The translations under genes were made by a program, and so were the position numbers. A stretch of DNA of 42,362 nucleotides from contig JAFGGA010000139.1 in the NCBI GenBank assembly GCA_016930835.1, forward strand, positions 1 to 42,362, read 5' to 3'. Position 1 is the first letter of the stretch. The number at the start of each line of letters is the position of its first letter. This DNA comes from Deltaproteobacteria bacterium (GTDB lineage: Bacteria > Desulfobacterota > DSM-4660 > Desulfatiglandales > HGW-15). Below the pieces are notes generated by a model. That model saw nothing but the letters and a program-made list of their open reading frames with translations, searched no databases and had not been told where the DNA came from. This document shows, one piece after another, positions 24,051 through 42,362 of this stretch.

Positions 24051-25106
24051 ATGAAAAGCAACGTCTTCATAAAAACCTGGTTTTTTAAGTCTGTAATGAT
24101 TTTTATGGCCTTATTTTTGGGGTTGCTCATTTATCTACCACACGCGGGAGCTGCCGATAAACCTATCAAACTCAGATACGGCTCAGCCTATACGGAAAGC
24201 ATGTGGATCGGCCAAGCGGCGGTTCTTTGGATGAAAAAGGTTGAGAAGGAATCGGGAGGAAAAGTGAAATTCGATTCCTATTTTGGAGGAACATTAATCA
24301 CCAATAAAAACGCCGCGGGAGAGGTGCGCGGGGGTACCGTTGACATTGCCCATATCGCCATGATTTTTGATCCCGAGTTTCAATTGCTCCAGAGAATAAG
24401 GGCCTTTATATGGGGACTGGGGATCAATGACGTAAAATTGGAAAATCAAATCTACAACGACCTTATTCAGATGTACCCACTGGAAAAACCCATCGGAGAT
24501 CTAAAAGTGATGGCCCGCACGCGAAATCTACCCTATCAACTCATCACCGCCAAAAAGCCCGTTCGCACCCTGGATGACTTTAAAGGTCTCAGGTTGAAGT
24601 GTTCCCCCCAGTACGTCAGTCTGCTCAAATCGCTCGGTGCTGAAGGAATCAATCTACCCACAAGTGAATTATACGTGTCATTACAAAAAGGAACGGTCGA
24701 CGGGACGCTTTTTGATTATGCCGCCATAAAATCTTTTAAGCTCCAGGAAGTGGCAAAATACGCCACCAATATCAACCTTGGCAGTGGCGTCTTGCCTATG
24801 GAGATCATGAGTCGAAAAAGCTTTGACGGTTTGCCGAAGGATATACAGCAAATCATCGACGGCAGCCTTGGCTATTGGGAATCCGAGATGTATCGCCTGC
24901 ACCTGATCGATGAAGAAGCCGGCACGCAACTGGGCAAAGATAACGGCATGACCTTTTTTGATCTTGGCTCCGCGGATATGAAACAGTTTCACAAACTCTC
25001 TTATGAGGCCGCGCGTGAAGAAGCTAGAGTATTGGATAATATGGGATTGCCCGGCTCCAAGGTTCTTGAGGACATGAGACGACTGAATGAGAAATACAGT
25101 AAATAA
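24051..25106 (+). CDS. dctP: TRAP transporter solute-binding protein (DctP family)
   Basis: A periplasmic receptor of 351 residues for a TRAP transporter that imports organic acids using an ion gradient. A signal peptide spans about 1-35 (ending HAGAAD). The mature protein begins KLRYGSAYTESMWIGQAA and contains the DctP core: ARTRNLPYQLITAKKPVRTLDDFKG, then LRLKCSPQY, with an Arg placed to bind a carboxylate, and later LPTSELYVSLQKGTVDG. The AAGGAGG site is good. It is the first of dctP-dctQ-dctM. The ligand is unknown; the downstream CoA and radical enzymes suggest a carboxylic acid. Confidence 0.93.
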   Translation: MKSNVFIKTWFFKSVMIFMALFLGLLIYLPHAGAADKPIKLRYGSAYTESMWIGQAAVLWMKKVEKESGGKVKFDSYFGGTLITNKNAAGEVRGGTVDIAHIAMIFDPEFQLLQRIRAFIWGLGINDVKLENQIYNDLIQMYPLEKPIGDLKVMARTRNLPYQLITAKKPVRTLDDFKGLRLKCSPQYVSLLKSLGAEGINLPTSELYVSLQKGTVDGTLFDYAAIKSFKLQEVAKYATNINLGSGVLPMEIMSRKSFDGLPKDIQQIIDGSLGYWESEMYRLHLIDEEAGTQLGKDNGMTFFDLGSADMKQFHKLSYEAAREEARVLDNMGLPGSKVLEDMRRLNEKYSK

Positions 25107-25130
25107 AATATGATACTTTCTGGAGAAAAA

Positions 25131-25613
25131 ATGGAAAGGTATATCCGCTTTATCCAGCAGATCAGCTCCCTTGGCGCTGTGTTCGGGGGTATCATTCTCG
25201 TGTTTATCATGCTGCTAACCGTTGCATCGGTCCTTTTCCGTATTTTCGGGAATGCCATAGTAGGCTCTTATGAGCTTACAGAGCTTGTTATCGTCGTCAC
25301 GATCGGTTTTGCCCTGGTCTACAGCACCATGACAAGGGCCAACGTTGCGGTACACATCTTTTACGACCGTTTCTCACCCTCCGTTCAAAAGATGATCAAT
25401 ATCTTTATCGCGGCTCTTTCATTGGGCTTTTGGGGATGGATGGCATGGGAAACCCTTCGCATGACCATTGACAGAGGCTGGATGGAACGAAGTGAGGTGT
25501 TTCTCTTCCCTCTTCTTCCTTTTCGCTTGATCTGGGTTTTGGGATTGGGTGTCCTGACGCTTTTACTTTTGGCGCTATTGACAAAAGGGATCTTCGGGAG
25601 GGCGAACAAATGA
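25131..25613 (+). CDS. dctQ: TRAP transporter small permease (DctQ family)
   Basis: A membrane subunit of about 160 residues with four predicted membrane helices (around 13-38, 48-68, 88-110 and 128-150 from this start). The core NAIVGSYELTELVIVVTIGFAL is typical of DctQ. The start at 25131 is preferred because GGAG lies 5 bases upstream; the ATG at 25110 has no ribosome site. It overlaps dctM by 4 bases (ATGA), so translation is coupled. Confidence 0.92.
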   Translation: MERYIRFIQQISSLGAVFGGIILVFIMLLTVASVLFRIFGNAIVGSYELTELVIVVTIGFALVYSTMTRANVAVHIFYDRFSPSVQKMINIFIAALSLGFWGWMAWETLRMTIDRGWMERSEVFLFPLLPFRLIWVLGLGVLTLLLLALLTKGIFGRANK

Positions 25614-26911
25614 GCGCGGTGGTGATCGGCTTTATCGGCTTTATCATACTGTTTGCCCTAATCGGTTTCGGAGTTCCCATCGGGATCAGCATGGGCGTTA
25701 TCGGCACATGTGGTTTGTGGTATTTTTTCGGGACCGGCTCCGCGATTGTCAAACTCGTCTACACACCTTTAGACCTGGTCATGAACTACAACTTTGCCGT
25801 GCTCCCTCTCTTTTTACTCATGGCCCATATCTGTTTTGTTGCCGGTCTCAGTACAGATCTTTATCGAATCGCCTCTAAATGGCTCGGCCATCTAAAAGGA
25901 GGTATCGGAATAGCCACAGTGGCCGCATCCGCGGGCTTTGCGGCCATGAGCGCCTCCAGCACCGCGACGGCTGCCACCATCGGGTTGGTGGCCATGCCAG
26001 AGATGAAACGGCTTCGGTATGACCCGGCCCTGGCGGCTGGGACGGTTACGGCGGGCGGCACCTTAGGGATTCTGATTCCTCCCAGCAGCACGCTGATCAT
26101 TTACGGCATCATGACGGAGACATCTATCGGACAGCTTTTCGTCGCCGGCATTTTGCCCGGACTCTTGGAGGCTTCTTTCTATATCCTGACGATCTATGTG
26201 CTTTGCACCCTGAATCCAGCCTTGGGACCTAAAGGACCAAAATCCACCTGGAAAGAAAAGATAACGGTTTTAAGCACCTGCGGGGAGATCATCGCCTTGG
26301 TTGTGTTTGTACTGGGAGGCATGATTATCGGCTGGTTCACACCAACGGAAGCAGGCGCCATGGGTTCGTTCGGGGCGATCCTTTTTTCTCTTATCAGGCG
26401 AAGACTGAACTGGCCTAAATTCAAACAAGCGGTCATGGATACGATGAAAACCACCGGCCTTATTTATACGATTTTGATCGGTGCACTCCTCCTGCGCTAT
26501 TTTGTAACCGTCACAACCATCCCGAAGTACCTGGCGGAAACCGTGGCGGGGTTGGACCTTCCCCCCATGGCTATTATGGCGTGTGTGTTTCTTCTTTTTA
26601 TATTCCTGGGTTGTTTTCTGGATGCCATGGCCCTCCTGCTTCTCACGCTGCCGATTTTTTTCCCGCTCGTTACGGGTATGGGATTCAGTCCCATCTGGTT
26701 CGGGATCATCATGGTAAAAATGATCGAGATGGCGATCATCACACCGCCCATCGGGCTGAATCTTTTCGTGGTCTCCGGGATGGCTCCGGATGTCCCGATT
26801 CAGACCGTATACAAGGGCGTCTTTCCTTTTGTGATTGCGGACATCGTAAACGTGTTTCTATTGTTGTTTATACCGGGTATCGCGCTCTTTTTACCGGGTA
26901 TTCTATATTAA
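25610..26911 (+). CDS. dctM: TRAP transporter large permease (DctM family)
   Basis: A 433-residue membrane protein with about 12 hydrophobic segments forming the transport channel. Family motifs include the conserved GTLGILIPPSSTLIIYGI near residue 147, FAAMSASSTATAATIG before it, and a C-terminal MAIITPPIGLNLFVVSG. Length is normal for an unfused DctM. It completes the DctPQM transporter. Confidence 0.95.
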   Translation: MSAVVIGFIGFIILFALIGFGVPIGISMGVIGTCGLWYFFGTGSAIVKLVYTPLDLVMNYNFAVLPLFLLMAHICFVAGLSTDLYRIASKWLGHLKGGIGIATVAASAGFAAMSASSTATAATIGLVAMPEMKRLRYDPALAAGTVTAGGTLGILIPPSSTLIIYGIMTETSIGQLFVAGILPGLLEASFYILTIYVLCTLNPALGPKGPKSTWKEKITVLSTCGEIIALVVFVLGGMIIGWFTPTEAGAMGSFGAILFSLIRRRLNWPKFKQAVMDTMKTTGLIYTILIGALLLRYFVTVTTIPKYLAETVAGLDLPPMAIMACVFLLFIFLGCFLDAMALLLLTLPIFFPLVTGMGFSPIWFGIIMVKMIEMAIITPPIGLNLFVVSGMAPDVPIQTVYKGVFPFVIADIVNVFLLLFIPGIALFLPGILY

Positions 26912-28692: not shown

Positions 28693-29433
28693 ATGAATCA
28701 GGATAAACAACTTGTATATGAAAAAAAAGGCCCGATCGCCCATATCATATTGAACAGGCCGGGAAAAATAAACGCCATGACGGTGGAACTCTATGATCTT
28801 TTGGAAGCGGCGGTAAAAGACTACACGGAAGATGACAGTCTCTCGTGCGCTGTTGTTTCCGGCGCGGGCGGCAATTTTTCATCAGGGGCTGATCTTAAAG
28901 AGGGTGCCAGGGCAGGGGGGAGTCACTATGACGGTTACGGCATCTTCCCGCCTTACAGGGCCATGACCCTGTGTCCAAAACCCTTTATCGCCGCGGTCGA
29001 CGGCTATTGTATCGGATCCGGGTTTAGTTGCGCAGTCCTCTATTCGGATATGTGCATCGCTTCCGACCGTGCGGTGTTCGGTGTCGCCCCGCAAAGGGAA
29101 TTTCACGGACGCAGCGGTACCCGTTGGTTTTCACAATCCGACAAGCCCAGGTCCGGAGGTTATGCAAAGCCTTATTCCCGCAGGATGAGTCCGGGGAACG
29201 CTTTCTATATATGGATGGCGGTGGAAAAATTCAGCGCCCAGGATGCATTGCGTATGGGCATCGTGAGTGAGGTGGTGCATCATGGTCAATTGATGGAAAG
29301 GGTTTCCGAATTGGCGACAACCATATCGAAAATTCCCATCGCGGAAATTAAACGCCGCACCGAATTTCTACGCCTCTCACTGGAAGTCCCGGGGGCTTTT
29401 GATCAAAGACTGACGGATATCATCAGATGGTAA
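28693..29433 (+). pseudogene. Enoyl-CoA hydratase/isomerase family gene, copy 1, internally frameshifted
   Basis: A crotonase-fold protein readable as 246 residues. The N-terminal half is normal, with the oxyanion-hole regions NFSSGADLKEG and DGYCIGSGFSCA. Between about 29085 and 29190 the reading frame no longer resembles the family. The +2 frame there gives a family-like stretch (PAKGISRTQRYPLVFTIRQ, then LCKALFPQDE), and after that the original frame resumes with MSPGNAFYIW and ALRMGIVSEVV. This implies two compensating indels leaving roughly 34 wrong residues. The protein also stops about 25 residues earlier than copy 2 (29471-30241), losing the C-terminal helix. It could be a decaying tandem duplicate or reflect sequence errors. 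Confidence 0.75.
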
Positions 29434-29470
29434 CAGACGGAATTGCCGTCCTATCAAGGAGAAATGACCA

Positions 29471-30241
29471 ATGAATCAGGACAAAGAACTATTATATGAG
29501 AAAAAAGGCCCGATCGCCTATATTACTTTTAACAGACCGGATAAAGTCAATGCTATCACGACGAACATGTATGATCTGCTTGAAGAAGCCATCAATGACT
29601 ACGCAGCGGATGAAAATCTCCTATGCGCGATTATTACCGGCGCCGGCGGCAACTTTTCATCCGGTGCTGATCTCAAACAGGGCGGAAGGATTGGAGGCAG
29701 CAATAGGGGATATGGCATGTTTCCAGCTTATCGAGCCATCAATCAATGTCCAAAACCACTAATAGCAGCGGTAGACGGATATTGCCTCGCTTCGGGTTTT
29801 AATTGCGCGGTTTTATATTGCGACTTCCGTATTGCCTCGGATCGGGCAAAATTCGGAATCCCCGCGGTCAAACGGGGCCTGAGTCTCCCATACCCTATTC
29901 CGTTTACCTATCAGATGAGCCTGGGTAATGCACTCTACATGGTGCTCACGGGTAAAATCCTTAACGCGGAGGAGGCCCTTCGCATGGGGATTGTCAGCGA
30001 GGTGGTCCCCCATGAAAAGCTCTTGGAGCGGGCCACGGAACTGGCGACGACAATTTCCGAGGCCGCTCCGATGCACGTGCGACTGCACAAGCAATTTTTA
30101 CGCAATTTTGTAGAGGTGCCGGGTTCATTTGGTCAGGGGCTGATCGATATCATCATGCCGTCGCTTCGTAATGCCGAGGATTCCAACGAAGGGAAAAAAG
30201 CGTTCATAGAAAAGCGAAAGCCTGAATTCAAAAATAAGTAA
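29471..30241 (+). CDS. Enoyl-CoA hydratase/isomerase family protein, copy 2
   Basis: A crotonase-fold enzyme of 256 residues acting on an acyl-CoA thioester (hydration, isomerisation or related chemistry). The CoA/oxyanion-hole motifs NFSSGADLKQG and AAVDGYCLASGFNCA are intact, followed by ASDRAKFGIPAVKRGLS and ALRMGIVSEVV. The usual acidic catalytic residues cannot be assigned with confidence. The first 20 codons and the ribosome-binding region closely match copy 1 just upstream, so the two arose by tandem duplication. This copy is complete, ending KKAFIEKRKPEFKNK. It precedes a decayed SDR fragment and four CoA-transferase genes. Confidence 0.9.
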   Translation: MNQDKELLYEKKGPIAYITFNRPDKVNAITTNMYDLLEEAINDYAADENLLCAIITGAGGNFSSGADLKQGGRIGGSNRGYGMFPAYRAINQCPKPLIAAVDGYCLASGFNCAVLYCDFRIASDRAKFGIPAVKRGLSLPYPIPFTYQMSLGNALYMVLTGKILNAEEALRMGIVSEVVPHEKLLERATELATTISEAAPMHVRLHKQFLRNFVEVPGSFGQGLIDIIMPSLRNAEDSNEGKKAFIEKRKPEFKNK

Positions 30242-30248
30242 TCATTCG

Positions 30249-30481
30249 ATGAAAAGAGAACGTCGGTATTGTCACGGGGGTGGGAGCGTGAATCGGGGTA
30301 GGCATCGCAAGACCGTGAAGAACGAGAGGAAGAAGTCGTCATACACGATTTCAATCCTAATGGGGAATTACTCGCGCGGATAACGGGCTGGAACAAAAGC
30401 CCCGGGACCGTGATCATTGAAGGTGATATCAAGGATCTTCAGCAATTCCTGGATTCCTGCAACCGATACGATATAAAATGA
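30249..30481 (+). pseudogene. Decayed short-chain dehydrogenase/reductase N-terminal remnant
   Basis: No intact gene is present, but pieces of an SDR N-terminal half can be read by changing frame. First comes ENVGIVTGVGA, then a TGA stop (30289-30291), then IGVGIAR: the Rossmann motif TGxGxxxGxG with one residue replaced by a stop. A second stop follows at 30316-30318. In the next frame from about 30308 come EEEVVIHDFNPNGELLARI and TVIIEGDIKDLQQFL, ending DIK and TGA at 30479-30481. This corresponds to roughly the first 75 residues of an SDR. The C-terminal half is missing. It lies between the hydratase and CoA-transferase genes. Confidence 0.7.
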
Positions 30482-30497
30482 GGAATAAAAATAAAGC

Positions 30498-31760
30498 ATG
30501 GCATCTGAAAAAACGCGGGACAATCAGACGGTACTCGGAGGATACAGGGCCCTCGATTTGACGGATGAAAAGGGCGCCATGTGCGGGTGGGCACTGGCCG
30601 CCCTGGGCGCGGAGGTCATCAAGGTTGAACCGCCGGGTGGAGATCCGAGCCGGAGCATCCCGCCCTTTTATGGAGGGGTTCCCCACCCCGAAAAAAGCCT
30701 TTTCTTTTTTGCCTACAATACGAACAAAAAAAGCATTACGCTCAATCTGGAAACCGTCGATGGACGGGTGATATTCGAAAAACTCGTACGGTCCGCTGAT
30801 TTCGTGATCGAATCATTCAAACCGGGATACATGGAGGCCCAAGGTCTGGGATATTCCGCATTAGATCATATCAACCCTCGAATCGTAATGACGGCCATCA
30901 CACCTTTCGGGCAGACCGGACCTTACCGTGGCTTTAAGACGTCAGACCTCATGTGTAGCGCCATGTCGGGCTTCATGTATCTGACCGGCGACCCGGACCG
31001 CGAGCCGATTCGTATCAGCGTTCCCCAGGCATATGCCCTGGGTGGAGCGGAAGGCGCCATCGCGACCATGACGGCCCATTATTTCAGGGAACGAACGGGA
31101 GAGGGGCAATACGTGGATGTGTCCATCCGCGAATCCATGCTGAAAACCGCTCCCTATTCCTTGCCGTGGATGGAGAAATACGGCAAGCTCACCAAGCGTT
31201 CAGGCCCCTACTGGACACTCATGGGCCAAAACACAAGGGTGCATTGGCCCTGCAAAGACGGTTCCGTCACTTTTGTATTGCCTGCTATAAAGATAAATCC
31301 CGACCTTTGTCGCCGATTTATCGAATGGATGGCCGAAAAAGGCATCATTCATGAATCTTTCAATCGAATCGATTGGAATCATCCGGACATGGCCTCCATA
31401 ACGCCTCAAATCCAGAATGAATTGGAATCTTCCATCCTCAATCTCTGTAAAACCCTTACCCGATCAGAGTTGATGGAAGGATTGATTGCAAGAGGGATCA
31501 CGGCGGCACCGGTGAATACGATGGAAGATATCTCTCGAAACGAACAGTTAAGGGCCAGGGATTTTTGGGAACAAGTTGAGCATGGGGAAATGGGCGCATC
31601 CATACCTTATCCAGGGGCCTTCATCAGAGCCACGGAAACCCCGTGTGTAAAAAAACATCGGGCGCCCATGATCGGGGAGCATAATCGCGAAATTTACGTT
31701 GATTTTCTGGGGATACCCAAAAAGGAACTCGTGATCCTGAAAGTCGCGGGTATTATTTAG
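30498..31760 (+). CDS. Class III (CaiB/BaiF) CoA-transferase, A-type copy 1
   Basis: A 420-residue CoA-transferase family protein that would move CoA between carboxylates. It has the N-terminal Rossmann-like part (GYRALDLTDEKG, LGAEVIKVEPPGGDPSR), NKKSITLNLET, and GQTGPYRGF. At the position of the catalytic aspartate in this family (after GEGQYVDVSIR) it carries Glu212, whereas the paralogue at 33072-34334 has Asp212. Activity may therefore differ or be lost. It forms an A/B pair with the next gene, as in two-subunit enzymes such as succinyl-CoA:benzylsuccinate CoA-transferase (BbsEF). The family is sure; the substrate is unknown. Confidence 0.9.
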   Translation: MASEKTRDNQTVLGGYRALDLTDEKGAMCGWALAALGAEVIKVEPPGGDPSRSIPPFYGGVPHPEKSLFFFAYNTNKKSITLNLETVDGRVIFEKLVRSADFVIESFKPGYMEAQGLGYSALDHINPRIVMTAITPFGQTGPYRGFKTSDLMCSAMSGFMYLTGDPDREPIRISVPQAYALGGAEGAIATMTAHYFRERTGEGQYVDVSIRESMLKTAPYSLPWMEKYGKLTKRSGPYWTLMGQNTRVHWPCKDGSVTFVLPAIKINPDLCRRFIEWMAEKGIIHESFNRIDWNHPDMASITPQIQNELESSILNLCKTLTRSELMEGLIARGITAAPVNTMEDISRNEQLRARDFWEQVEHGEMGASIPYPGAFIRATETPCVKKHRAPMIGEHNREIYVDFLGIPKKELVILKVAGII

Positions 31761-31831
31761 AATGATCATCCGGTAGACATGATAGCCATGTTTTTCCGGC
31801 AGGGGAATTATTATTGGATCAAGGAGATAAA

Positions 31832-33046
31832 ATGTGCCGACAAGCGCTGGAAGGCGTCAAGATAGCGGATTTCACTTGGGCGGCCGCCGGCCCCTTAACC
31901 ATGAGCTATCTGGCCCACGGTGGAGCTACCGTTGTGAAAATCGAATCCGGTACCAGGTCGGGAGCATCAAGATCTTTTCCTCCTCGGGGAGGCGAAGGCG
32001 GCATGATCAGCAGTATGATGTTCTCCAATGATAACTCTGACAAATTAAGCATCAGCATCAATATGAAAAATCCGAGAGGTGTGGAGGTCGCCAAGAAGCT
32101 GGTTTTATGGGCGGATGTGGTGGCTGAAAATTTTCGCCCCGGCACCATGGAAAAATGGGGTCTAGGGTATGCGGAACTAAAAAAGATCAATCCCTCGATC
32201 ATCATGTTTCGTTCGAGCGCGAGAGGGCAGACAGGACCGGATTCAAAGGTCGCCGAAAATGGAATAACACTACAGAGCCTGACCGGATTTACCTCTCTGA
32301 CAGGTTATCCGGATAAGAATGACCCCACTCCCCCCTGGGGAGCATACACGGATCTGACCGCGCCGGCCCTCGGCGCGGTGATGCTGATCGGAGCATTGGA
32401 TTACAGGGCCAAGACCGGTAAAGGACAATGTCTTGACCTTTCCCAATTGGAAGCCGGGCTGCAATTCCTGGCACCCGCGATACTTGATTATCATGTGAAT
32501 CATTTATGCGCGCGCCGAATGGGGAACGCCTCCTCTTACGGCGTCCCCCATGGTGTTTATCGCTGTTCAGGGAATGACCGGTGGTGCGCCATTGCGATCT
32601 TTGACGACCGGGAATGGAAAGCCTTCTGCCGGATCATGGACAAACCGGAATGGCTTGATGACCCCCGGTTCGCGACCGCAATCGCCCGGAAAAAAAATGA
32701 ATCGGAACTCGATCACCTGATCAACGAATGGACCGTCAAACATCCTGTTGAAGAAATCATGAATCTCCTTCAAGACAATAATATATCGGCCGGGATTGTT
32801 GAAAATTCGGCTGACATCCTAAATGACCCGCAGATCAAAGAGCGGCAATTCTTTGAAAAATTGGAACATCCGCATCTGGGATCTTTCTTTCATCATGGGG
32901 TCGGCTTTAGATTGTCCAAGACGCCGTGCAATCCAAGAACACCCGGTCCCATCCTGGGTCAGCATACGGAACATGTATGTCGGGAGTTATTGGGACTCGG
33001 GAAAGATGAATATGAGAACCTGGTTGATGCAGGTGCCTTTACGTAA
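31832..33046 (+). CDS. Class III (CaiB/BaiF) CoA-transferase, B-type copy 1
   Basis: A 404-residue CoA-transferase family protein. Motifs: GVKIADFTWAAAGPLTMSYLAHGGATVVKIES, SINMKNPRGVEV, NFRPGTMEKWGLGY, and GKGQCLDLSQLEAGL, in which Glu207 stands where the nucleophilic Asp is expected. The start at 31832 is preferred because AAGGAG lies 7 bases upstream and the length then equals the paralogue at 34424-35638; a TTG at 31814 is an alternative. It follows the A-type gene by 71 bases and probably forms a heteromeric enzyme with it. Confidence 0.9.
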   Translation: MCRQALEGVKIADFTWAAAGPLTMSYLAHGGATVVKIESGTRSGASRSFPPRGGEGGMISSMMFSNDNSDKLSISINMKNPRGVEVAKKLVLWADVVAENFRPGTMEKWGLGYAELKKINPSIIMFRSSARGQTGPDSKVAENGITLQSLTGFTSLTGYPDKNDPTPPWGAYTDLTAPALGAVMLIGALDYRAKTGKGQCLDLSQLEAGLQFLAPAILDYHVNHLCARRMGNASSYGVPHGVYRCSGNDRWCAIAIFDDREWKAFCRIMDKPEWLDDPRFATAIARKKNESELDHLINEWTVKHPVEEIMNLLQDNNISAGIVENSADILNDPQIKERQFFEKLEHPHLGSFFHHGVGFRLSKTPCNPRTPGPILGQHTEHVCRELLGLGKDEYENLVDAGAFT

Positions 33047-33071
33047 TCAAAAAGATTTGTGAGAACATGAT

Positions 33072-34334
33072 ATGACGAACCAAAAACAAGATAAAAATAT
33101 GGGTGCCCTGGGTCCTTATCGAGTACTGGACCTGACGGATGAAAAAGGGTTTTTATGCGGCCGTCTCATGGCCGATCTGGGTGCCGAGGTGATCAAGATT
33201 GAGCCGCCGGGTGGAGATCCGGGTCGCAGCCTTCCTCCTTTTTACAAGGATGACCCCCATCCGGAAAAGAGTCTTTATTATTTAGCGTATAACGCCAGTA
33301 AAAAGAGCATCACACTGGATATCGAGACGACCGACGGGCAGGACATCTTTAAGAAACTGGTGAAGACGGCGGATTTCGTCATCGAATCATATAGGCCGGG
33401 ACATATGGATAATCTGGGCCTGGGCTATGAAGACCTCAGCCGGATAAATCCCCGGGTCGTTGTGACGTCCATCTCGCCGTTCGGCCAAACCGGACCCTAT
33501 CGTAATTTTCATTCATTCGATCTGTTGTGCAGCGCCATGTCCGGGCACATGTTTATAACGGGCGACCCGGACCGGGCACCCCTCCACATCAGCCTGCCGC
33601 AGGCCTATTTATTGGGATCGGCCGAGGCCCTAATGGCAACCATGGCCGCGCATTACTATCGCCGGAAAACCGGGCTGGGTCAGCATGCGGATGTGGCTAT
33701 CCGGGATGCCATGATCAAGACCACAGTGAACACTGTCCCCATGTGGGAATACAAGAATGAGATCACGAAAAGAGGTGGTGTTTTTTGGACCCTCAGGGGC
33801 GAAAAGCAGCGCGTCCTCTGGCCTTGCAAGGACGGCGCTGTCTCTTTCGGGATGCATGGGGGCGGATTCGGGGCCAAGACCAATCGCGAACTGGTCAAGT
33901 GGATGGACAGCGAGGGCATGGCGAGTGATTTTCTAAAAACCATTGACTGGGAAAACCTGGACATGGAAACGGCTACACCTGAACTTTACAATGAGTTATC
34001 CGATGCCATCTTAAGGTTTTTTCAAACCCACACCAAAAAAGAACTCGCCCGTGAAGCCCTGGATCGGGGTGTCATGTTATCTCCCGTGCAGACCGTGGCG
34101 GATATTTCAGAGAGTACCCAACTGGAAGCCAGGGATTTCTGGGACGAGGTAGAGCATTGGGACCTGAATGTCCGTATCCGTTATCCCGGTGCCTTTATCC
34201 AGATAACGGAAACCCCTTGTTTAAAAACAACCCGGGCGCCCCATATCGGGGAGCATAACGAAGATATTTATATCCGTGAATTGAAAATGACCAGCGAGGA
34301 GCTGGCCATACTGAGCGGGGCAAGAGTGATTTAA
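33072..34334 (+). CDS. Class III (CaiB/BaiF) CoA-transferase, A-type copy 2
   Basis: A 420-residue paralogue of the gene at 30498, alignable along its whole length with no gap in the first 220 residues. GPYRVLDLTDEKG and LGAEVIKIEPPGGDPGR mark the CoA-binding N-terminal part. At the catalytic position it keeps aspartate (GLGQHADVAIRD, Asp212), making it the only one of the four local CoA-transferases with the canonical nucleophile. The ribosome site is weak (GTGAG), and Met10 is an alternative start. It begins 25 bases after the B-type copy 1 gene. Confidence 0.92.
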   Translation: MTNQKQDKNMGALGPYRVLDLTDEKGFLCGRLMADLGAEVIKIEPPGGDPGRSLPPFYKDDPHPEKSLYYLAYNASKKSITLDIETTDGQDIFKKLVKTADFVIESYRPGHMDNLGLGYEDLSRINPRVVVTSISPFGQTGPYRNFHSFDLLCSAMSGHMFITGDPDRAPLHISLPQAYLLGSAEALMATMAAHYYRRKTGLGQHADVAIRDAMIKTTVNTVPMWEYKNEITKRGGVFWTLRGEKQRVLWPCKDGAVSFGMHGGGFGAKTNRELVKWMDSEGMASDFLKTIDWENLDMETATPELYNELSDAILRFFQTHTKKELAREALDRGVMLSPVQTVADISESTQLEARDFWDEVEHWDLNVRIRYPGAFIQITETPCLKTTRAPHIGEHNEDIYIRELKMTSEELAILSGARVI

Positions 34335-34423
34335 TATGAATCCAAAAACCGTTGTTTCTGGATGAACATAACTAGGCTTCAATAATCAGCTATAGGCAGA
34401 CATTTCAAGATAAGGTTCTTAAA

Positions 34424-35638
34424 ATGAGTAAACAAGCCCTCGAAGGAGTAAAGGTGGCTGACTTCACGTGGGTCGCGGCAGGTCCTTTAACGACCAATTA
34501 TCTGGCCCAGTGCGGCGCAACCGTCGTCAAGATAGAATCCATTACCAAACCGGATGGGATTCGAACCTTCCCACCCAATAAAGATAACCAAGCCGGTCCG
34601 AACCGTAGCCTCCTCTTTTCCATGGAAAATGCCAACAAGCTCAGCATGACCCTCAACCTCAAACATCCCAAAGGCCTTGAACTCGTCAAACGGTTGGTGG
34701 CGTGGGCGGATATCGTCGCGGAGAACTATCGACCCGGCACCATGGAGAGGTGGGGTCTGGGCTATGAGGATCTGAAAAAAATCAACCCGTCCATCATCAT
34801 GTTCAGTTCGAGCGCGCAGGGGCAAACCGGTCCGGACGCTGGAATGGGCGCCACCGGCATCACCCTTCAAAGCCTTTCCGGCTTTACTCATCTGACAGGA
34901 TGGCCGGACAGGGACCCCGCTCCGCCTTGGGGGGCCTATACGGACCTCACGGCCCCGGCGTTCGGCGCGGCCGCATTGATGGCCGCCTTGGATTACCGCG
35001 ATCGAACCGGCAAGGGACAATATCTCGACCTCTCCCAATATGAGGCCGGGCTCCATTACCTCTCCCCCGCCATTCTGGATTATCACGTAAACGGCCGGGT
35101 GGCGGGGAGAACGGGGAATGCGCAACCCTATGCCGCGCCCCACGGTGTTTATCGATGCTCAGGAGAAGAGCGATGGTGCTGTATCGCCGTATTCAATGAA
35201 AAGGAATGGACGGCATTCCGGCAAATTATGGGAGAACCTGGCTGGGCAAAAGAGGAACGTTTTTCAACCTTTCTCAAAAGGAAAAAAAATGAGGCTGAAT
35301 TGAATGCACTTGTCGAGACCTGGACATCCCGGCACAGCCCCGAGGATGTCATGGCCATGCTTCAGGAAAAAGGCATATCCGCCGGAGTGGTGAAAAATGC
35401 CCAAGACATCTACGAAGACCCCCAGCTCAAGGAGCGGGAATTTTTCAAAAAATTGGATCATCCGGAGATCGGACCTCTATCACACCGCAGTGTCGGCTTT
35501 AAACTCTCCAGGACCCCTTGCGGACCGATCAGGCCGGGGCCTTGCCTAGGAGAACATACGGAACAGGTTTGCCGTGAATTTTTAGGCATGTCGGATGAAG
35601 AGTTTGTGGACTTAATTACGGATGGAGTGTTCGAATGA
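34424..35638 (+). CDS. Class III (CaiB/BaiF) CoA-transferase, B-type copy 2
   Basis: A 404-residue paralogue of the gene at 31832-33046: GVKVADFTWVAAGPLTTNYLAQCGATVVKIES, NYRPGTMERWGLGYEDL, GKGQYLDLSQYEAGL. Glu207 occupies the usual Asp position, as in the other B-type copy, so this looks like a family feature rather than damage. It probably pairs with the preceding A-type protein, with the Asp supplied by A. Its stop overlaps the SDR start by 4 bases (ATGA), so the two are translationally coupled. Confidence 0.92.
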   Translation: MSKQALEGVKVADFTWVAAGPLTTNYLAQCGATVVKIESITKPDGIRTFPPNKDNQAGPNRSLLFSMENANKLSMTLNLKHPKGLELVKRLVAWADIVAENYRPGTMERWGLGYEDLKKINPSIIMFSSSAQGQTGPDAGMGATGITLQSLSGFTHLTGWPDRDPAPPWGAYTDLTAPAFGAAALMAALDYRDRTGKGQYLDLSQYEAGLHYLSPAILDYHVNGRVAGRTGNAQPYAAPHGVYRCSGEERWCCIAVFNEKEWTAFRQIMGEPGWAKEERFSTFLKRKKNEAELNALVETWTSRHSPEDVMAMLQEKGISAGVVKNAQDIYEDPQLKEREFFKKLDHPEIGPLSHRSVGFKLSRTPCGPIRPGPCLGEHTEQVCREFLGMSDEEFVDLITDGVFE

Positions 35639-36402
35639 AAAAACTACAGGATAAAGTGGCTATTATTACCGGCGCCGGATCAGGGATTGGAGCCGCTTCC
35701 GCCTATTTATTCGCGCGGGAAGGCGCCAAGGTCGTTGTCGCCGATTTGAACCAAGACACAGGCCGTGAGGTCATGCGTAAAATTACGGAAGCAGGCGGCA
35801 CCGCCGTGTTTATACAAACGGATGTCTCCATATCCAATGATGTCGAACGTATGATCCAAACTGCCGTGGATTCGTTTGGAAGGGTTGATATCCTTTTTAA
35901 CAATGCCGGCATCCTGGGCTCACCCTTGGAAAACCTGACGGAGACCCAATGGCGAAAAGAACTGGATATCATGCTGACAGGCCCGTTCCTGGGTTGTCAT
36001 TATGCCATCCCGATTATGAAAAAACAGGGCGGTGGCAATATCATCAACACAGGGTCGGTGGCCTCATTCATCGCCGGCGGAAGCAGCCCGGGATACACAG
36101 CTGCCAAGGGCGGATTGTTGATGCTGACAAAATATCTAGGTAAGGCCCTGGCCAAGGATCAGATCCGGGTCAATTGCATCTGTCCCGGGGCCGTTGATAC
36201 GGGCATCACCGTTGCCCTTTGGGGGCAACCCTCCACCGACGAAGAGAAAAAGGCCATTGAACAAATCCGTTTTTCACGTATCCCCATGGGTCGGGCGGGC
36301 TCAACCGAAGAAGTGGCCGCTGTGGCCTTGTTCCTGGCATCGGATGAATCATCTTATATCACCGGCGCGGCCATACCTGTGGATGGGGGGATGCTGGCCT
36401 AA
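35635..36402 (+). CDS. Short-chain dehydrogenase/reductase (SDR)
   Basis: An NAD(P)-dependent oxidoreductase of 255 residues, classical SDR. The cofactor motif TGAGSGIG is at 12-19, and VVADLNQ at 34-40 has an Asp after strand 2 that favours NAD. NNAG is at 89-92. The catalytic set is S141, Y154 and K158 (YTAAK). The end ASDESSYITGAAIPVDGGMLA is complete. It is the last gene of the plus-strand catabolic series, coupled to a CoA-transferase. A hydroxyacyl-CoA or alcohol substrate is plausible, as with the BbsC/D class, but this is inference. Confidence 0.93.
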   Translation: MKKLQDKVAIITGAGSGIGAASAYLFAREGAKVVVADLNQDTGREVMRKITEAGGTAVFIQTDVSISNDVERMIQTAVDSFGRVDILFNNAGILGSPLENLTETQWRKELDIMLTGPFLGCHYAIPIMKKQGGGNIINTGSVASFIAGGSSPGYTAAKGGLLMLTKYLGKALAKDQIRVNCICPGAVDTGITVALWGQPSTDEEKKAIEQIRFSRIPMGRAGSTEEVAAVALFLASDESSYITGAAIPVDGGMLA

Positions 36403-36628: not shown

Positions 36629-39055
36629 TTACAACTGCTGTTCCGCGCGTGTAATGATCTGATTTTGAAGGTTGGGATCGAGTTCCACAAAATAGGCGCT
36701 GTATCCGCCGACCCGGACGATTAGATTTTTATATGGCGCCGGTGTTTTTTGGGCGGCCACATATTCTTCCTTGCCATGGATGTTCCATTGGATCTGATAA
36801 CCGTTATAGCCTTTAAAAAAGGCCTCGTTAAGGTCCGCGAACCGGTTCAACTCGCCCTCTGTTTTGAGTAGATCTCTGGGCATTTTTTGGTTAAGGACCG
36901 CGGAGCGGTTCTTTTTAAAATCAAGGGCCTTGGCCACGGATCTCATGGTCACGGTCGGCCCTTTGACGTCATAACCCGCGCATGGGGAGATCCCGCCGTC
37001 GGACAATGGCATGCCGGCCTTTCGGCCGCTGGGCAAGGCACCGACCGATTGTCCTTGCGCCATATGGACCGCTCCCCCCACCCGCGTATCCCGCTTGGGA
37101 TATCCGAAGTATCCTATGCGGGATTGCGAAACAGCCGCCACATGATCATTCAATTCCCGATAAATCTCTTCCGGCCTGCCCAGGTCATTGCCGAACTTGG
37201 ATGCCTTTTCCAGCATGTTTTGTATGTTCGCACCCTGATCACCATGAAAATCATTCTTACAGGCATCGATGATCTCATCTACGGTGATTTTATGATCGCG
37301 GTACACCAGTTCATCGATCGCCACGAATGAATCCACGACATCCGCATACACCTTGTTATTGATATCGCCGGTAAATTGGTTGTATCGGCATCCCCCCTGA
37401 TGAACATCCAATCCCTTATGGATACAATCGGGCGTCAGGGCCGATGCAAAGGGTTGACTGTATAAACCCATTTGGGTGATCTCCCCCAGGTTATACCCTT
37501 TGAGTACCACATCGTAAAAATGATCCCACTGTTTCTTATACGCGTCAATCCATTCCCGGATGGATTGAAAAGCACGTGGATCGCCGGTCCGGAGGCCGAT
37601 CTGCTTTTCCGTCAGCGGATCATACCCGTCGTACATGACCAGCTCGAGGATCTTGGCCCCATTGATAAACATCTGGACCGACCCGTATGCGCTCCCGTAA
37701 GGGTAAGGATGCGAACAGCCGCGGACCACATAATCACGGGCATCTTCCAGTGCCACACCATCCGCCATCAGGCCGGGGATAATCTGTTCGTCATTATGGA
37801 ATGCCGGTTCCGAACCCACGAGGATATTGGTCTGGATGGCCTTGAGCATCAGGTCTCTACTGATTCCGGAATGCCAACGCAGATAAAGGGGCAAGTCCAT
37901 ATTCATTTGACCTGCCACGTGGAGGATCAAATAGGTCAACTCATTACCGGCATCATGACCGTCCCTGTCCACGCCGCCGAGGATGGCTCGCGTCTGCACG
38001 TAACCCGCACCCGCCGTCTTCACATAAGATGGAGGAATTCGCTCTGTTGCCGCCACCTTTACCCAAAAGGCGGCAAGGAGTTCTGCGGCCTGCTCCCGAG
38101 TGATCAATCCCCGTTCCAGTTCCTTTTGATAGATGGGAAAAAGGTATTGATCCATACGATCCAATGAGGCGCCGCTCCCGTTCGCATCCTCCAGGTATAA
38201 CCCGAGATGAATAAACCGCACACTCTGAAGAGCCTCCCAGAAATTTCGGGGCGGGTTTTCCGGCACATGCTCGCAAACATCGGCAATGGTCTCCAGCTCC
38301 TTTTTGCGCCCTTCATTATTTTCCTTGGCAGCCATTTCTCGTACGAGCGCCGAATAGCGCTTGGCCAATCGAATCATGGCCTCGCAGGAAATCTTGGCCC
38401 CCTTTAAGAATGAATATTTTTGCCCGTCCGAAGGGGAGGTGTATTGAAGTCCGGCCATCTCTTTATCGATATCCTGGATGAAACCTTTCAGGCCATGGCG
38501 GACCACCTTTTCGTAATCCGCATCCGGCACAAAATTAGTAAAAGCCCCATAGGCCCTGGTACATGCGGCCGTTGTATCTTCAAACACCGGTCCCATTGTT
38601 TCACGGATGGTCTTCCACATCACCTCGCCCGGGCTTTTCCCTCTCCAGTAAAGGCTGTCCTGGTGGATAATCTTTAAATCATCATCAGTAATGATGCCTG
38701 TTGTCTGTTCCGCCCGTAGTCTTCGATCGCCCTCCGTCAGCTCAAAACCGACCTTTGAATGATAATCCAATTGCAACCCCACTCCCCGTATATAATGGGT
38801 CTGGGAACCCACGATCAATTCGTGATCAAATATGGTGATGGGGATTTCATCACAAATCTTGGCAAAAAGCCTTGCCCGCCTTTCATGAAGGGGCTGACCT
38901 TAGGTCTCTTTCCACGATAAGGTTGCCAGATGGGAGCGCTCAGCGCAAATATGCACGGGGCTGTTATAAAAATTCTCCCGCAAGGCCTCTATCCTGGAAG
39001 TCCTTACATCGATGTGATCGATGTCATCCATATAGTACGTTGATTTTGGGGCCAT
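36629..39055 (-). pseudogene. Glycyl-radical enzyme 1, interrupted by an in-frame TAA
   Basis: A pyruvate-formate-lyase-type glycyl-radical enzyme. From ATG 39055 (GGGAG upstream) the frame reads 51 residues ending SWKET, then TAA (38900-38902), then continues in the same frame with GQPLHERRARLFAKICDEI to a normal end, about 808 codons in all. In enzyme 2 the equivalent site is Glu (SEGE), so one G-to-T change (GAA to TAA) explains it. The radical loop VRVGGYSAYF (Gly784) is intact. The active-site cysteine is Cys447 in RGCSHPYP: Cys-x-His rather than the Cys-x-Glu of lyases and decarboxylases such as choline lyase. Restart at TTG 38818 would give 729 residues lacking the N-terminus. It may be a recent pseudogene, a sequence error, or translational read-through. 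Confidence 0.8.
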
Positions 39056-39168
39056 GGATTTCTCCCTCTCCAGTATCTAGCATCCAGAATCCGGTATCCT
39101 TTTCCTACGCACAATAGTGTTCGCTGTTACACCCAACTCAAACATAAGAATTCCGCCTCCCAGAACCC

Positions 39169-41556
39169 CTACCCCATCCCATCATGTTCGGTACGAGCCA
39201 CGATCTCATCCTGCATGACCTTGTCGAGTTGGACGAAATAGGCGCTATATCCGGCGATCCGCACAACCAGATCACCATGACTCTCCGGATGCCCCTGGGC
39301 ATCGGTTAAGGTCTCTCGATTGACCACGTTAAACTGGATATGTTTTCCGCCTTCTATGAAATAGGTCCTGATCAGCATGGACAATTTTTGCAGGTCCTCC
39401 TCTGTTTTCATGGCCGAAGGATGAAATTTGACGTTCAGCAAGGTGGCTTGAAAAGACTCTTGGTCGATCTTCATAGCACTCTTAAGAAGTGCGGTGGGCC
39501 CACGCTTATCCTTGCCCCTCATGGCCGAGACGGAACCATCCGCCAGACACTCTCCCGCGAACCGGCCGTCCGGCGTTGCGCCGGTACAAGCCCCTCCCGG
39601 CCACTGGGCGGATATGGAAACACCCGAGGATTTATGTTTACCGCCGAAATAATTGTCCATGGCGATGACCGTATCGGTCCAGAAGCCATATATCTCTTTC
39701 ACGATGGAGTCCACGTAGTCGTCGTCATTGCCGTATTTAGGAGCGGCCAGAACCATCTTGCGAATTTCCTCACCCCTGTCATCCGACCAGTTGGTGTCCA
39801 ATGCCTGCTTGAGTTCTTTTAAGGTAAACTTTTTCTCTTCAAAGACCAGCTTCTTGACGGCCGCTAAGGAGTCGGCCGCATTGATCATGCCCACGGGGCT
39901 TAATGCCGCAATATTTTCAAAATCAAATTTGCGGTCCAATAAGGCCTTGCCGTCTTGAATGGCCCCCTTCATCAAGGAAGATAAAAAGGGGTCCGGGAAC
40001 AGCTCGGACCAGACCTGAACCTTGATATTATTATGTTGCGCCGCGAGATCCGTAAAATGGATGATCTGTTTTTTAAAGGCCTCCAACAATTCTTGAAAAG
40101 TCTTGAAATCCTCGAATCGGCCGGTCTTTGGTCCCAGTTGTTTTCCGGTGGATGGAAAGATCCCGTTATTCATGGTGATTTCCAGGACCAGCGGGACAAT
40201 GAACATGGGTACGGCCAAGGTGCGCGATTCCCCCGGCAGACCCACATCGAGGCATCCCACCAGAGTATAGTCCCGGGCCTTCTCAAGGGGTACGCCTTCC
40301 TTCAGGAGATAACCGATATAGGATCGATCACCCACAAAGGCCGGCATACCGATACCCGTCCGGACCAATTCAAGGGCCTTGGTCATGAGGGGCTCGGGCG
40401 TGCCTTCATGAACCCTTAATGTTATGGTGTGATGAGGCGTCCGGCACCTGTTGGCGGCTTCAAGAATGAGATAGGACAGATCATTGGTCGCGTCTTTTCC
40501 ATCAGACGTCTGCCCGCCGATAATGCAATTATGCCATTTGGCCATTCCCGACCATTTTTTGCGATGTTCCCGGCTGGAGGTACGGATCAACTGCATATCC
40601 TTGATCCTCAGACATTGCAGCAGTTCAAGGACTTCTTCATCGGTCATCGCGCCGGCTTCTCTTGTCTTTTGATAAACCGGATACATATATTGGTCAAAAC
40701 GACCCATCCCCACCACGCCGTTAGGATTAAACATAAGGAAAAGAAACCAAAAAAACTGCAAGGCATCGTGAAAATCGCGGGGAGAATGCGCCGGTATCCA
40801 TCGGCACATGTCTTCAATCTTTAACAATTCTTTTTTTCGTGTGGGATTGTTTTCAATTGCCGCCATTTTCTTGGCCAGATCAGCGAATCGCAGGGAAAAA
40901 CGTATGGCGGCCTGATGGGCGATGATAACCGACTTGAGAAAATCGAATTTCTTAATGGACTCTGCGTTGGTAATCCGCGTGTTCTTCAGCTCCTCTTCCG
41001 CCTCTTGAATCATACCTTCAAGACCTTTATTCATGGCCATTTCATAGTCGGGAGCCACCAATATATAGGGACCCAGCCCGATGCCGCTCTCCGCGTAACC
41101 GGCCCAGCCCACACCCCTTTTCCAAGGGGGCAAGATGATGGGGGTCTCCATGAAAGGCCACATCCGTTCCTCATCAAAGTATTGTTCGAACTTGTCGGTT
41201 AATGTTTTTCCTTTCCAATATTCCCTAAGAGACGCAAGATTCTCCTCATCCTCCCGGGTAATATTATACCCTTCTTCCTTCAGCCCCTCCACCTCGTCTT
41301 GAGGCCAAGTACCGGCCCAAAAACTGATCTCAAAACCCATGGGTCTGCTGGCGGTATTTCCCACAATAAGCTCATCATCTTCAATAAATATCGTAACATG
41401 ATCCAGGATATTGGCGAACGCCTTGGCCCTTCGAACAACGGTTGCCTCACCCTCGCTCTGTTTATAACTCTCGGTCCATAATAATGATTTTTCCAGACAC
41501 AAAGGATGATCTTCCACATCCAATGCCTGTCTCAGCCTTTCGATTCGATTCGTCAT
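39169..41556 (-). CDS. Glycyl-radical enzyme 2 (PFL family)
   Basis: A complete 795-residue glycyl-radical enzyme. The radical glycine is Gly769 in VRIAGYSAYFVQLD near the C-terminus, and GGKHIQFNVV precedes it. The active-site cysteine is Cys435 in LVGCLDVGLPG: Cys-x-Asp, where characterised dehydratases, decarboxylases and C-N/C-S lyases have Cys-x-Glu and pyruvate formate-lyase has Cys-Cys. The reaction is therefore not assigned; a decarboxylase or C-C lyase on an organic acid is possible. GGAG lies 6 bases before the ATG. It stands between two related genes on the same strand, with no activating radical SAM enzyme in view. Confidence 0.93.
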   Translation of the reverse strand: MTNRIERLRQALDVEDHPLCLEKSLLWTESYKQSEGEATVVRRAKAFANILDHVTIFIEDDELIVGNTASRPMGFEISFWAGTWPQDEVEGLKEEGYNITREDEENLASLREYWKGKTLTDKFEQYFDEERMWPFMETPIILPPWKRGVGWAGYAESGIGLGPYILVAPDYEMAMNKGLEGMIQEAEEELKNTRITNAESIKKFDFLKSVIIAHQAAIRFSLRFADLAKKMAAIENNPTRKKELLKIEDMCRWIPAHSPRDFHDALQFFWFLFLMFNPNGVVGMGRFDQYMYPVYQKTREAGAMTDEEVLELLQCLRIKDMQLIRTSSREHRKKWSGMAKWHNCIIGGQTSDGKDATNDLSYLILEAANRCRTPHHTITLRVHEGTPEPLMTKALELVRTGIGMPAFVGDRSYIGYLLKEGVPLEKARDYTLVGCLDVGLPGESRTLAVPMFIVPLVLEITMNNGIFPSTGKQLGPKTGRFEDFKTFQELLEAFKKQIIHFTDLAAQHNNIKVQVWSELFPDPFLSSLMKGAIQDGKALLDRKFDFENIAALSPVGMINAADSLAAVKKLVFEEKKFTLKELKQALDTNWSDDRGEEIRKMVLAAPKYGNDDDYVDSIVKEIYGFWTDTVIAMDNYFGGKHKSSGVSISAQWPGGACTGATPDGRFAGECLADGSVSAMRGKDKRGPTALLKSAMKIDQESFQATLLNVKFHPSAMKTEEDLQKLSMLIRTYFIEGGKHIQFNVVNRETLTDAQGHPESHGDLVVRIAGYSAYFVQLDKVMQDEIVARTEHDGMG

Positions 41557-41667
41557 TTTTATCTCCTGCGTTAATCTATTGTATCGTTCCGTAATATGAA
41601 TGAGATCATATCATACTATGTTGCATGCGGGTTATCATCCTCTCTTCATATATCCAATCTCATGGGT

Positions 41668-42362
41668 CTATCGAGACGATAATGGAGTCCGTATGGGTTG
41701 TTCATGAAACTGGGATCGTTTGATCATCTCGGCCTGAAGGTCCGGACTCAACTGCATGAAATAGGCGCTTGTCCCACCCAGGCGCACAATCAAATCCTTA
41801 TGTTTCTCAGGATGTTCCATCGCGTCTCTCAATTCATCGACATCATAAACGTTGAATTGTATATGCTTTCCACCCGAACGGAAATAGAAACGAATCATCT
41901 CTTCCAGGGCATCCAGTGCGTCCTGTTCAGCCAGTACAGGGCGTGAAAAACACATATCCAGCTCAACAACATGATAAGGCAACTGATCCACTTTTAATGC
42001 ACTTTTAATAACCTCCCACGGACCATGCTGCTCTCTCCCCCGCATGGGTGTGAGCGCCTCCTCCGCCAGTGGCTCGTCGGCCCCACGTCCGTCAGGCGTC
42101 GCACCTGTAACCACGCCGCCCGGCCAAGGTGAGGTTCCTATGGTCAGGGCGGAGGGGTTGCATCTTCCGCCCGTCATGTTGGGCAGAACCCGGATCTGAT
42201 CCGCCATATATTCAAATAACTCAGCCGCCAACAGATCCACCCGGTCGTCATCATTGCCGAACTTTGGCGCCGACAGGCAAAGCCCGCGGATCTCCGAGCC
42301 CCGTTCCCCGGCCCAATTGTCTTTCAATACCCGCCGGAGTTCGGCACCCCCCACGACTTTCC
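41668..42362 (-). CDS. Glycyl-radical enzyme 3, C-terminal part (runs off the window)
   Basis: The last 231 or so residues of a third glycyl-radical enzyme; the frame stays open to the right edge. PWPGGVVTGATPDGRGADEPLAEE matches the glycine-rich part before the C-terminal domain. GGKHIQFNVYDVDEL precedes the radical loop VRLGGTSAYF, where the usual Tyr/Phe after the radical glycine is Thr. It is the upstream member of a three-gene minus-strand series, 111 bases before enzyme 2. Its active-site cysteine lies outside the window. Confidence 0.9.
   Translation of the reverse strand, partial: KVVGGAELRRVLKDNWAGERGSEIRGLCLSAPKFGNDDDRVDLLAAELFEYMADQIRVLPNMTGGRCNPSALTIGTSPWPGGVVTGATPDGRGADEPLAEEALTPMRGREQHGPWEVIKSALKVDQLPYHVVELDMCFSRPVLAEQDALDALEEMIRFYFRSGGKHIQFNVYDVDELRDAMEHPEKHKDLIVRLGGTSAYFMQLSPDLQAEMIKRSQFHEQPIRTPLSSR

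Follow-up and report, generated by a model that had tools for sequence, protein, structure and literature searches.

Two uncharacterised clades of glycyl-radical enzymes in a deltaproteobacterial genome: an intact gene, an interrupted gene and a fragment at a contig end

Three genes for glycyl-radical enzyme (GRE) homologues that follow one another on a single strand, with atypical residues around the catalytic Cys or the radical Gly, raise the question of whether they represent three working enzymes, whether these belong to new subclasses, and what chemistry they may carry out. The stretch of DNA analysed here (the window, 42,362 nucleotides) is the whole of contig C196 in a deltaproteobacterial genome of 4.7 Mb and 224 contigs, so that position 42362 is a contig end. 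ORF, Pfam and NCBIfam analyses confirmed the original prediction of three consecutive PFL-like GRE homologues on the minus strand, at 36629-42360 (frames 36629-38818, 39169-41556 and 41668-42360), here named ENZ1, ENZ2 and ENZ3. The genome also encodes a dissimilatory sulfite reductase, in line with an anaerobic life of the host. Table 1 reports the positions of the three genes, of their key residues and of the neighbouring genes. As a side observation, a first look at two whole genomes of the same phylum, G212 and G077, gave 32 and 30 GRE candidates, respectively, a very large expansion.

Table 1. Positions of the GRE homologues, their key residues and neighbouring genes (window coordinates unless a locus is given)
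Feature	Position	Strand	Evidence
ENZ1, 808-codon GRE gene interrupted at codon 52	36629..39055	-	translation through stop; paralogue alignment
ENZ1 in-frame TAA, codon 52	38902-38900	-	translation, paralogue alignment, exact coordinates
ENZ1 Cys368 (TTG numbering)	37717-37715	-	
ENZ1 His370 (TTG numbering)	37711-37709	-	
ENZ1 radical Gly705 (TTG numbering)	36706-36704	-	
ENZ2, intact GRE homologue, 795 aa	39169..41556	-	ORF; full-length PF02901, 591.5 bits; motif columns
ENZ2 Cys435	40254-40252	-	motif columns
ENZ2 Asp437 (Cys435-Leu-Asp437)	40248-40246	-	motif columns
ENZ2 radical Gly769 (RIAGYS)	39252-39250	-	motif columns
ENZ3, C-terminal 230 aa of GRE homologue, cut by contig end	41668..42360	-	ORF; PF02901 570-642
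ENZ3 Gly196, followed by Thr197	41775-41773 (Gly196)	-	
Partial GRE of contig C7, running off its right end	L009:17810-19498 (C7, G000)	+	PF02901 1-542
TRAP transporter DctP-DctQ-DctM, neighbour of the GREs by position alone	24051..26911	+	Pfam
Two enoyl-CoA hydratases, four class III CoA-transferases, one SDR; convergent, GRE neighbours by position alone	28693..36402	+	NCBIfam, Pfam

The unusual residues that first drew attention to the locus are real. Specifically, the Cys and Gly loops read C-S-H and RVGGYS in ENZ1, and C-L-D and RIAGYS in ENZ2, while the Gly loop of ENZ3 reads RLGGTS (RLGGTSAYF); since ENZ3 is a fragment at the contig end, its Cys context is not readable within the window. 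The superfamily hallmarks, namely a full-length PF02901 match together with a Cys loop and a Gly loop, were all found in ENZ2, and ENZ1 shows the GRE residues as well, though its frame carries a stop. All three proteins have the radical Gly, and in none is it replaced by Thr, Ser or Ala as in threonyl radical enzymes. The latter, two of which adjoin one activase in aminoacyl radical enzyme systems (PMC11528403), are alike in having several GRE homologues per activase, but differ in that ENZ1, ENZ2 and ENZ3 keep the Gly, the Thr of ENZ3 following it. In a GRE homologue of another genome (G192, contig C160, locus L019), Thr occupies the position of the radical Gly (RVATYSAYF), as in threonyl radical enzymes.

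In NCBIfam, all three proteins scored below the curated equivalog cut-offs of the named GRE families. The best family-model scores were 455 bits for ENZ1 and 610 bits for ENZ2, the cut-offs being at least 994 for full-length equivalog models and 678 for the broad PFL2-3 subfamily; against the CutC, HypD, HpsG, HpfG, IAD, HPAD and PFL models, the best values were 448 bits for ENZ1 and 534 bits for ENZ2, compared to cut-offs of 994-1150. In phylogenetic trees the two proteins fall in two separate clades, each devoid of a characterised member, in agreement with the suggestion that the locus defines uncharacterised subclasses. Clade A consists of ENZ1 and two paralogues on contig C7 (64% identity; CAN and CVH at the Cys); across 85 genomes from the order and 247 from the phylum, it was seen in no genome but its own. 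With a clade A query, whose alignment also contained the C7 fragment of clade B, the score drops from about 1555 bits to 671 bits for the best match outside the genome, which belongs to clade B. A scan of named genomes yielded no close relatives of ENZ1 beyond homologues of 32-35% identity, and viral collections yielded little. Clade B comprises 13 full-length proteins: ENZ2, six other complete genes of the genome, two of genome G048, one each of G033, G208 and G307, and a protein of Novosphingobium. The view of three mutually different proteins holds for ENZ1, which is 30% identical to ENZ2, and fails for ENZ2 and ENZ3, which share a clade at 42-43% identity. These clades thus extend a well-known superfamily by new branches that are uncharacterised, and do not amount to a new kind of system.

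As for ENZ1, the ORF originally listed (729 aa, with a TTG start) covers what is left of an 808-codon gene, whose true start is the ATG at 39055, behind a good ribosome-binding site of the GGAG type. The 815-codon frame holds one TAA, beyond which neither a further stop nor a frame shift was found. The first 51 codons align with the two C7 paralogues, which read SWKETEGQPLHMRRAKLFAKICDEIP where ENZ1 reads SWKET, the stop and then GQPLHERRARLFAKICDEIP, so that the TAA replaces a Glu conserved in both paralogues (ETEGQP, within the segment SWKETEGQP). ENZ1 and these paralogues differ at 59.5-62.8% of third and 17.6-18.6% of second codon positions, an excess of about threefold. Such a pattern, in an otherwise open frame, indicates that ENZ1 was constrained until recently or that the stop is a consensus error; the interrupted gene is therefore either a recent pseudogene or an error of the consensus.

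ENZ3 has a counterpart elsewhere in the genome. The only other partial GRE gene runs off the right end of contig C7 in an orientation compatible with ENZ3, and when both pieces are aligned to full-length relatives they do not overlap and leave about 20 codons missing between them. Their GC contents are 54.3-54.4%, as opposed to contig averages of 46.7 and 49.2%, and the homologue nearest to both is encoded on a plasmid of Novosphingobium sp. PP1Y (UFBoot 100 for the C7 part, SH 0.995 for ENZ3). The two contig ends share no overlap. From the complementary coverage and orientation, the common nearest homologue and the equal GC content we infer that the C7 fragment is likely the front half of ENZ3, i.e., that the two contigs join. 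In place of the catalytic Cys this putative front half has a Ser (codon TCC; MSGSMN), and the protein whose C-terminal part is ENZ3 is probably a GRE-like one devoid of the catalytic Cys. The Novosphingobium gene (plasmid Mpl, L089:8920-11415) is intact and encodes CLG and RIGGCS loops; no activase was recognised within 9 kb of it, and its neighbours encode aldo/keto reductases, an MFS transporter and a LysR regulator. The reading of a truncated GRE gene of genome G258 as a pseudogene was dropped, its sequence entering Ns in the record.

Taken together, these features might mean that a GRE expansion left ENZ1 and ENZ3 as decaying paralogues and that only ENZ2 works in the row. The nonsense codon of ENZ1 is what decay would produce, and so are the Cys to Ser change in the probable other half of ENZ3 and the deviation of ENZ3 at 25 of 79 clade-conserved columns, compared to 0-5 in ordinary clade members. 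Nevertheless, the ENZ1 frame is open past the stop, with the codon-position bias described above (about 60% versus 18%), and the equally deviant protein of Novosphingobium PP1Y (27 of 85 clade-conserved columns) is intact, suggesting that ENZ3 belongs to a retained divergent type. Decay of both genes is, in our opinion, possible but somewhat doubtful. The notion of three enzymes was not supported, as ENZ1 bears a nonsense codon and ENZ3 is a fragment with a probable Cys-less other half; the row may amount to one working enzyme here.

The residue two positions after the catalytic Cys (Cys+2) was part of what made the locus look atypical. Cys-x-Glu is the mark of GRE eliminases, whose structures place the +2 residue beside the substrate (PMC8473560, PMC7077986), and neither ENZ1 nor ENZ2 carries it. 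Within clade B, +2 is Asp in 11 of the 13 full-length members, Glu in one (contig C132, Cys-Leu-Glu) and Gly in the Novosphingobium protein, which shows the conservation of the motif and at the same time, by the occurrence of D, E or G within one clade, argues against one strict acid-base role. In a sample of 66 environmental homologues, which comes nearly entirely from the same phylum, was drawn by similarity to the ENZ proteins and is no census, +2 is Glu in just 19, Tyr in 14, Asp in 12 and Gln in 8, the rest having Gly, Arg, Asn, His, Val, Thr or Ser; Glu is thus missing in 47. Among characterised decarboxylases, phenylacetate decarboxylase has Gln (PMC9248008) and the PDB sequence of arylacetate decarboxylase has Leu. 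The +2 residue is therefore a clade-level trait, probably linked to substrate chemistry, and a departure from Glu at this site is by itself neither rare nor a sign of novelty.

What, then, does ENZ2 do? In an IQ-TREE analysis of 74 GREs, which included eight references, and in a second tree under the site-heterogeneous LG+C20 PMSF model, clade B emerged as the sister of arylacetate (p-hydroxyphenylacetate) decarboxylase (AAD, 7e7l), its nearest characterised relative, yet outside it, with UFBoot 100 and SH-aLRT 96, respectively; the full HPAD, IAD and PAD sequences were in neither tree. The motifs PH, (I/V)DQ and GGKH(I/V)QFNV are common to clade B and AAD, as opposed to the seven other references, and neither ENZ2 nor AAD has Glu at Cys+2. 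On the other hand, AAD is at most about 35% identical to ENZ2, has Leu where ENZ2 has Asp, and sits on a long branch (1.24-1.57), so that the sister placement may be due to attraction. Judging from these sequence comparisons, ENZ2 most likely depends on an activase and acts on a carboxylic acid, as a radical decarboxylase or C-C lyase.

Alternatively, clade B could consist of GRE eliminases that act on hydroxy compounds as dehydratases or lyases, with Asp instead of Glu as general base. Asp is the nearest substitute for Glu, which the C132 member actually has, and the top overall PDB scores go to the B12-independent glycerol and diol dehydratases (1r8w, 5i2a), with the same Cys and Gly loops; for ENZ2, the bit scores are 526 with glycerol dehydratase and 428 with AAD. 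In addition, a TRAP transporter adjoining a GRE eliminase is known for isethionate lyase (PMC6453916, PMC11668362). However, both trees set the ENZ2 clade outside the group of glycerol/diol dehydratases, CutC, IslA, HypD and YbiW, although with weakly supported deep forks, and the Novosphingobium member has Gly at +2. Moreover, the dehydratases combine Cys-x-Glu with the substrate-binding residues His164, His281 and Asp447 of glycerol dehydratase, a set that is missing from ENZ2, where the corresponding columns hold L166, G280 and A448. We regard an eliminase activity as somewhat unlikely. AlphaFold2 runs on five-row alignments gave poor models, with a mean pLDDT of 55 for ENZ2 and 53 for ENZ1 and values of about 25 in the Cys loops.

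The gene context was then compared with that of the relatives. The gaps between ENZ3 and ENZ2 and between ENZ2 and the ENZ1 ATG measure 111 and 113 nt, respectively, which is compatible with a single transcript for the three genes. The window is devoid of an activase gene; if the C7/C196 join holds, the operon would read GRE(CVH) - activase - aconitase X large and small - C_GCAxxG protein - ENZ3 - ENZ2 - ENZ1, and the activase for the enzymes of the window would lie in the same operon. Another order, PGA_cap - MmgE/PrpD - GRE(CID) - activase - GRE(CLD), is conserved between contig C114 of this genome (G000) and contig C29 of G048, a genome from another family of the same phylum, with identities of 74% for the activase and 64% for MmgE/PrpD, and with a TRAP transporter nearby in both; in G048 the MmgE/PrpD gene and the GRE gene are separated by an additional OppDF-like frame. 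This two-GRE, one-activase cassette keeps alive the idea of a multi-protein system. Its MmgE/PrpD gene is the sole one of G048. G000, in contrast, encodes 17 MmgE/PrpD and 26 DctM proteins, which makes single adjacencies to GREs there weak evidence, yet only two activases above cut-off, on C7 and C114, for 12 GRE matches. Members of the MmgE/PrpD and aconitase X families have hydroxy- and polycarboxylic acids as substrates, which together with the TRAP transporters suggests that the substrate here is an organic acid. Within the window, four tandem class III CoA-transferase genes occupy 30498-35638, followed by the SDR gene and preceded by two enoyl-CoA hydratase genes and the TRAP transporter.

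The best overall explanation, which we put forward tentatively, is that the locus is the distal part of a GRE operon with a competent ENZ2, an interrupted ENZ1 and a probably Cys-less ENZ3. The proximal part, including the activase, would most likely be located on C7. ENZ2 would be a catalytically competent member of clade B, which is related to arylacetate decarboxylase, mostly Cys-x-Asp and uncharacterised: the radical-SAM activase would put a radical on Gly769, which would move to Cys435 as a thiyl radical and there initiate either the oxidation of a bound organic acid or the abstraction of a hydrogen atom from it. Asp437 may take the acid-base role held by Glu in Cys-x-Glu enzymes, and the outcome would be a decarboxylation or another C-C or C-X cleavage. 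ENZ1 belongs to a second clade, with its radical machinery kept and its gene interrupted by the stop.

The Cys-less, GGT-loop GRE-like protein is the most unusual part of the locus, contingent on the contig join. ENZ3 and its C7 half (Ser-Met-Asn, GGT loop) might even be a retained non-catalytic partner or radical-holding subunit of ENZ2, with one shared activase. We consider this improbable; if true, a catalytic enzyme and a pseudo-enzyme would be combined in one GRE system, of which the sphingomonad Novosphingobium has a relative.

Highly improbable is the idea that these GREs are X-succinate synthases adding fumarate to a hydrocarbon or similar compound, with the convergent genes processing the adduct as in the bbs pathway: the class III CoA-transferases, enoyl-CoA hydratases and SDR of that cluster are bbs-like, but lie on the opposite strand, the fumarate-binding Arg at Cys+15 (R508 in BSS, R492 in MASS; PMC12358834) is replaced by M383 in ENZ1 and P450 in ENZ2, and TutD and MasD (benzylsuccinate and alkylsuccinate synthases), though of the same superfamily, score among the lowest of the PFL2-like PDB matches with either clade. 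A BssB-type small subunit found no match in the genome, a weak test given that the model was silent in controls and gave a sub-cut-off match in one of 244 phylum genomes; no accessory subunits were found. Two further comparisons were set aside: a benzene-activation cluster, in whose description no GRE was found (PMC13101534), and limonenylsuccinate synthase, a true succinate synthase with 61% identity to Bss (PMC12583861).

In conclusion, most GRE chemistry rests on few characterised clades, to which a genome with dissimilatory sulfite reductase adds two uncharacterised ones, and the Cys+2 residue is in nature far more variable than the characterised set suggests. The nonsense codon and the split gene matter to anyone ordering these genes. 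Finally, the MmgE/PrpD-GRE-activase-GRE cassette provides a concrete target in the search for a new radical reaction on organic acids.
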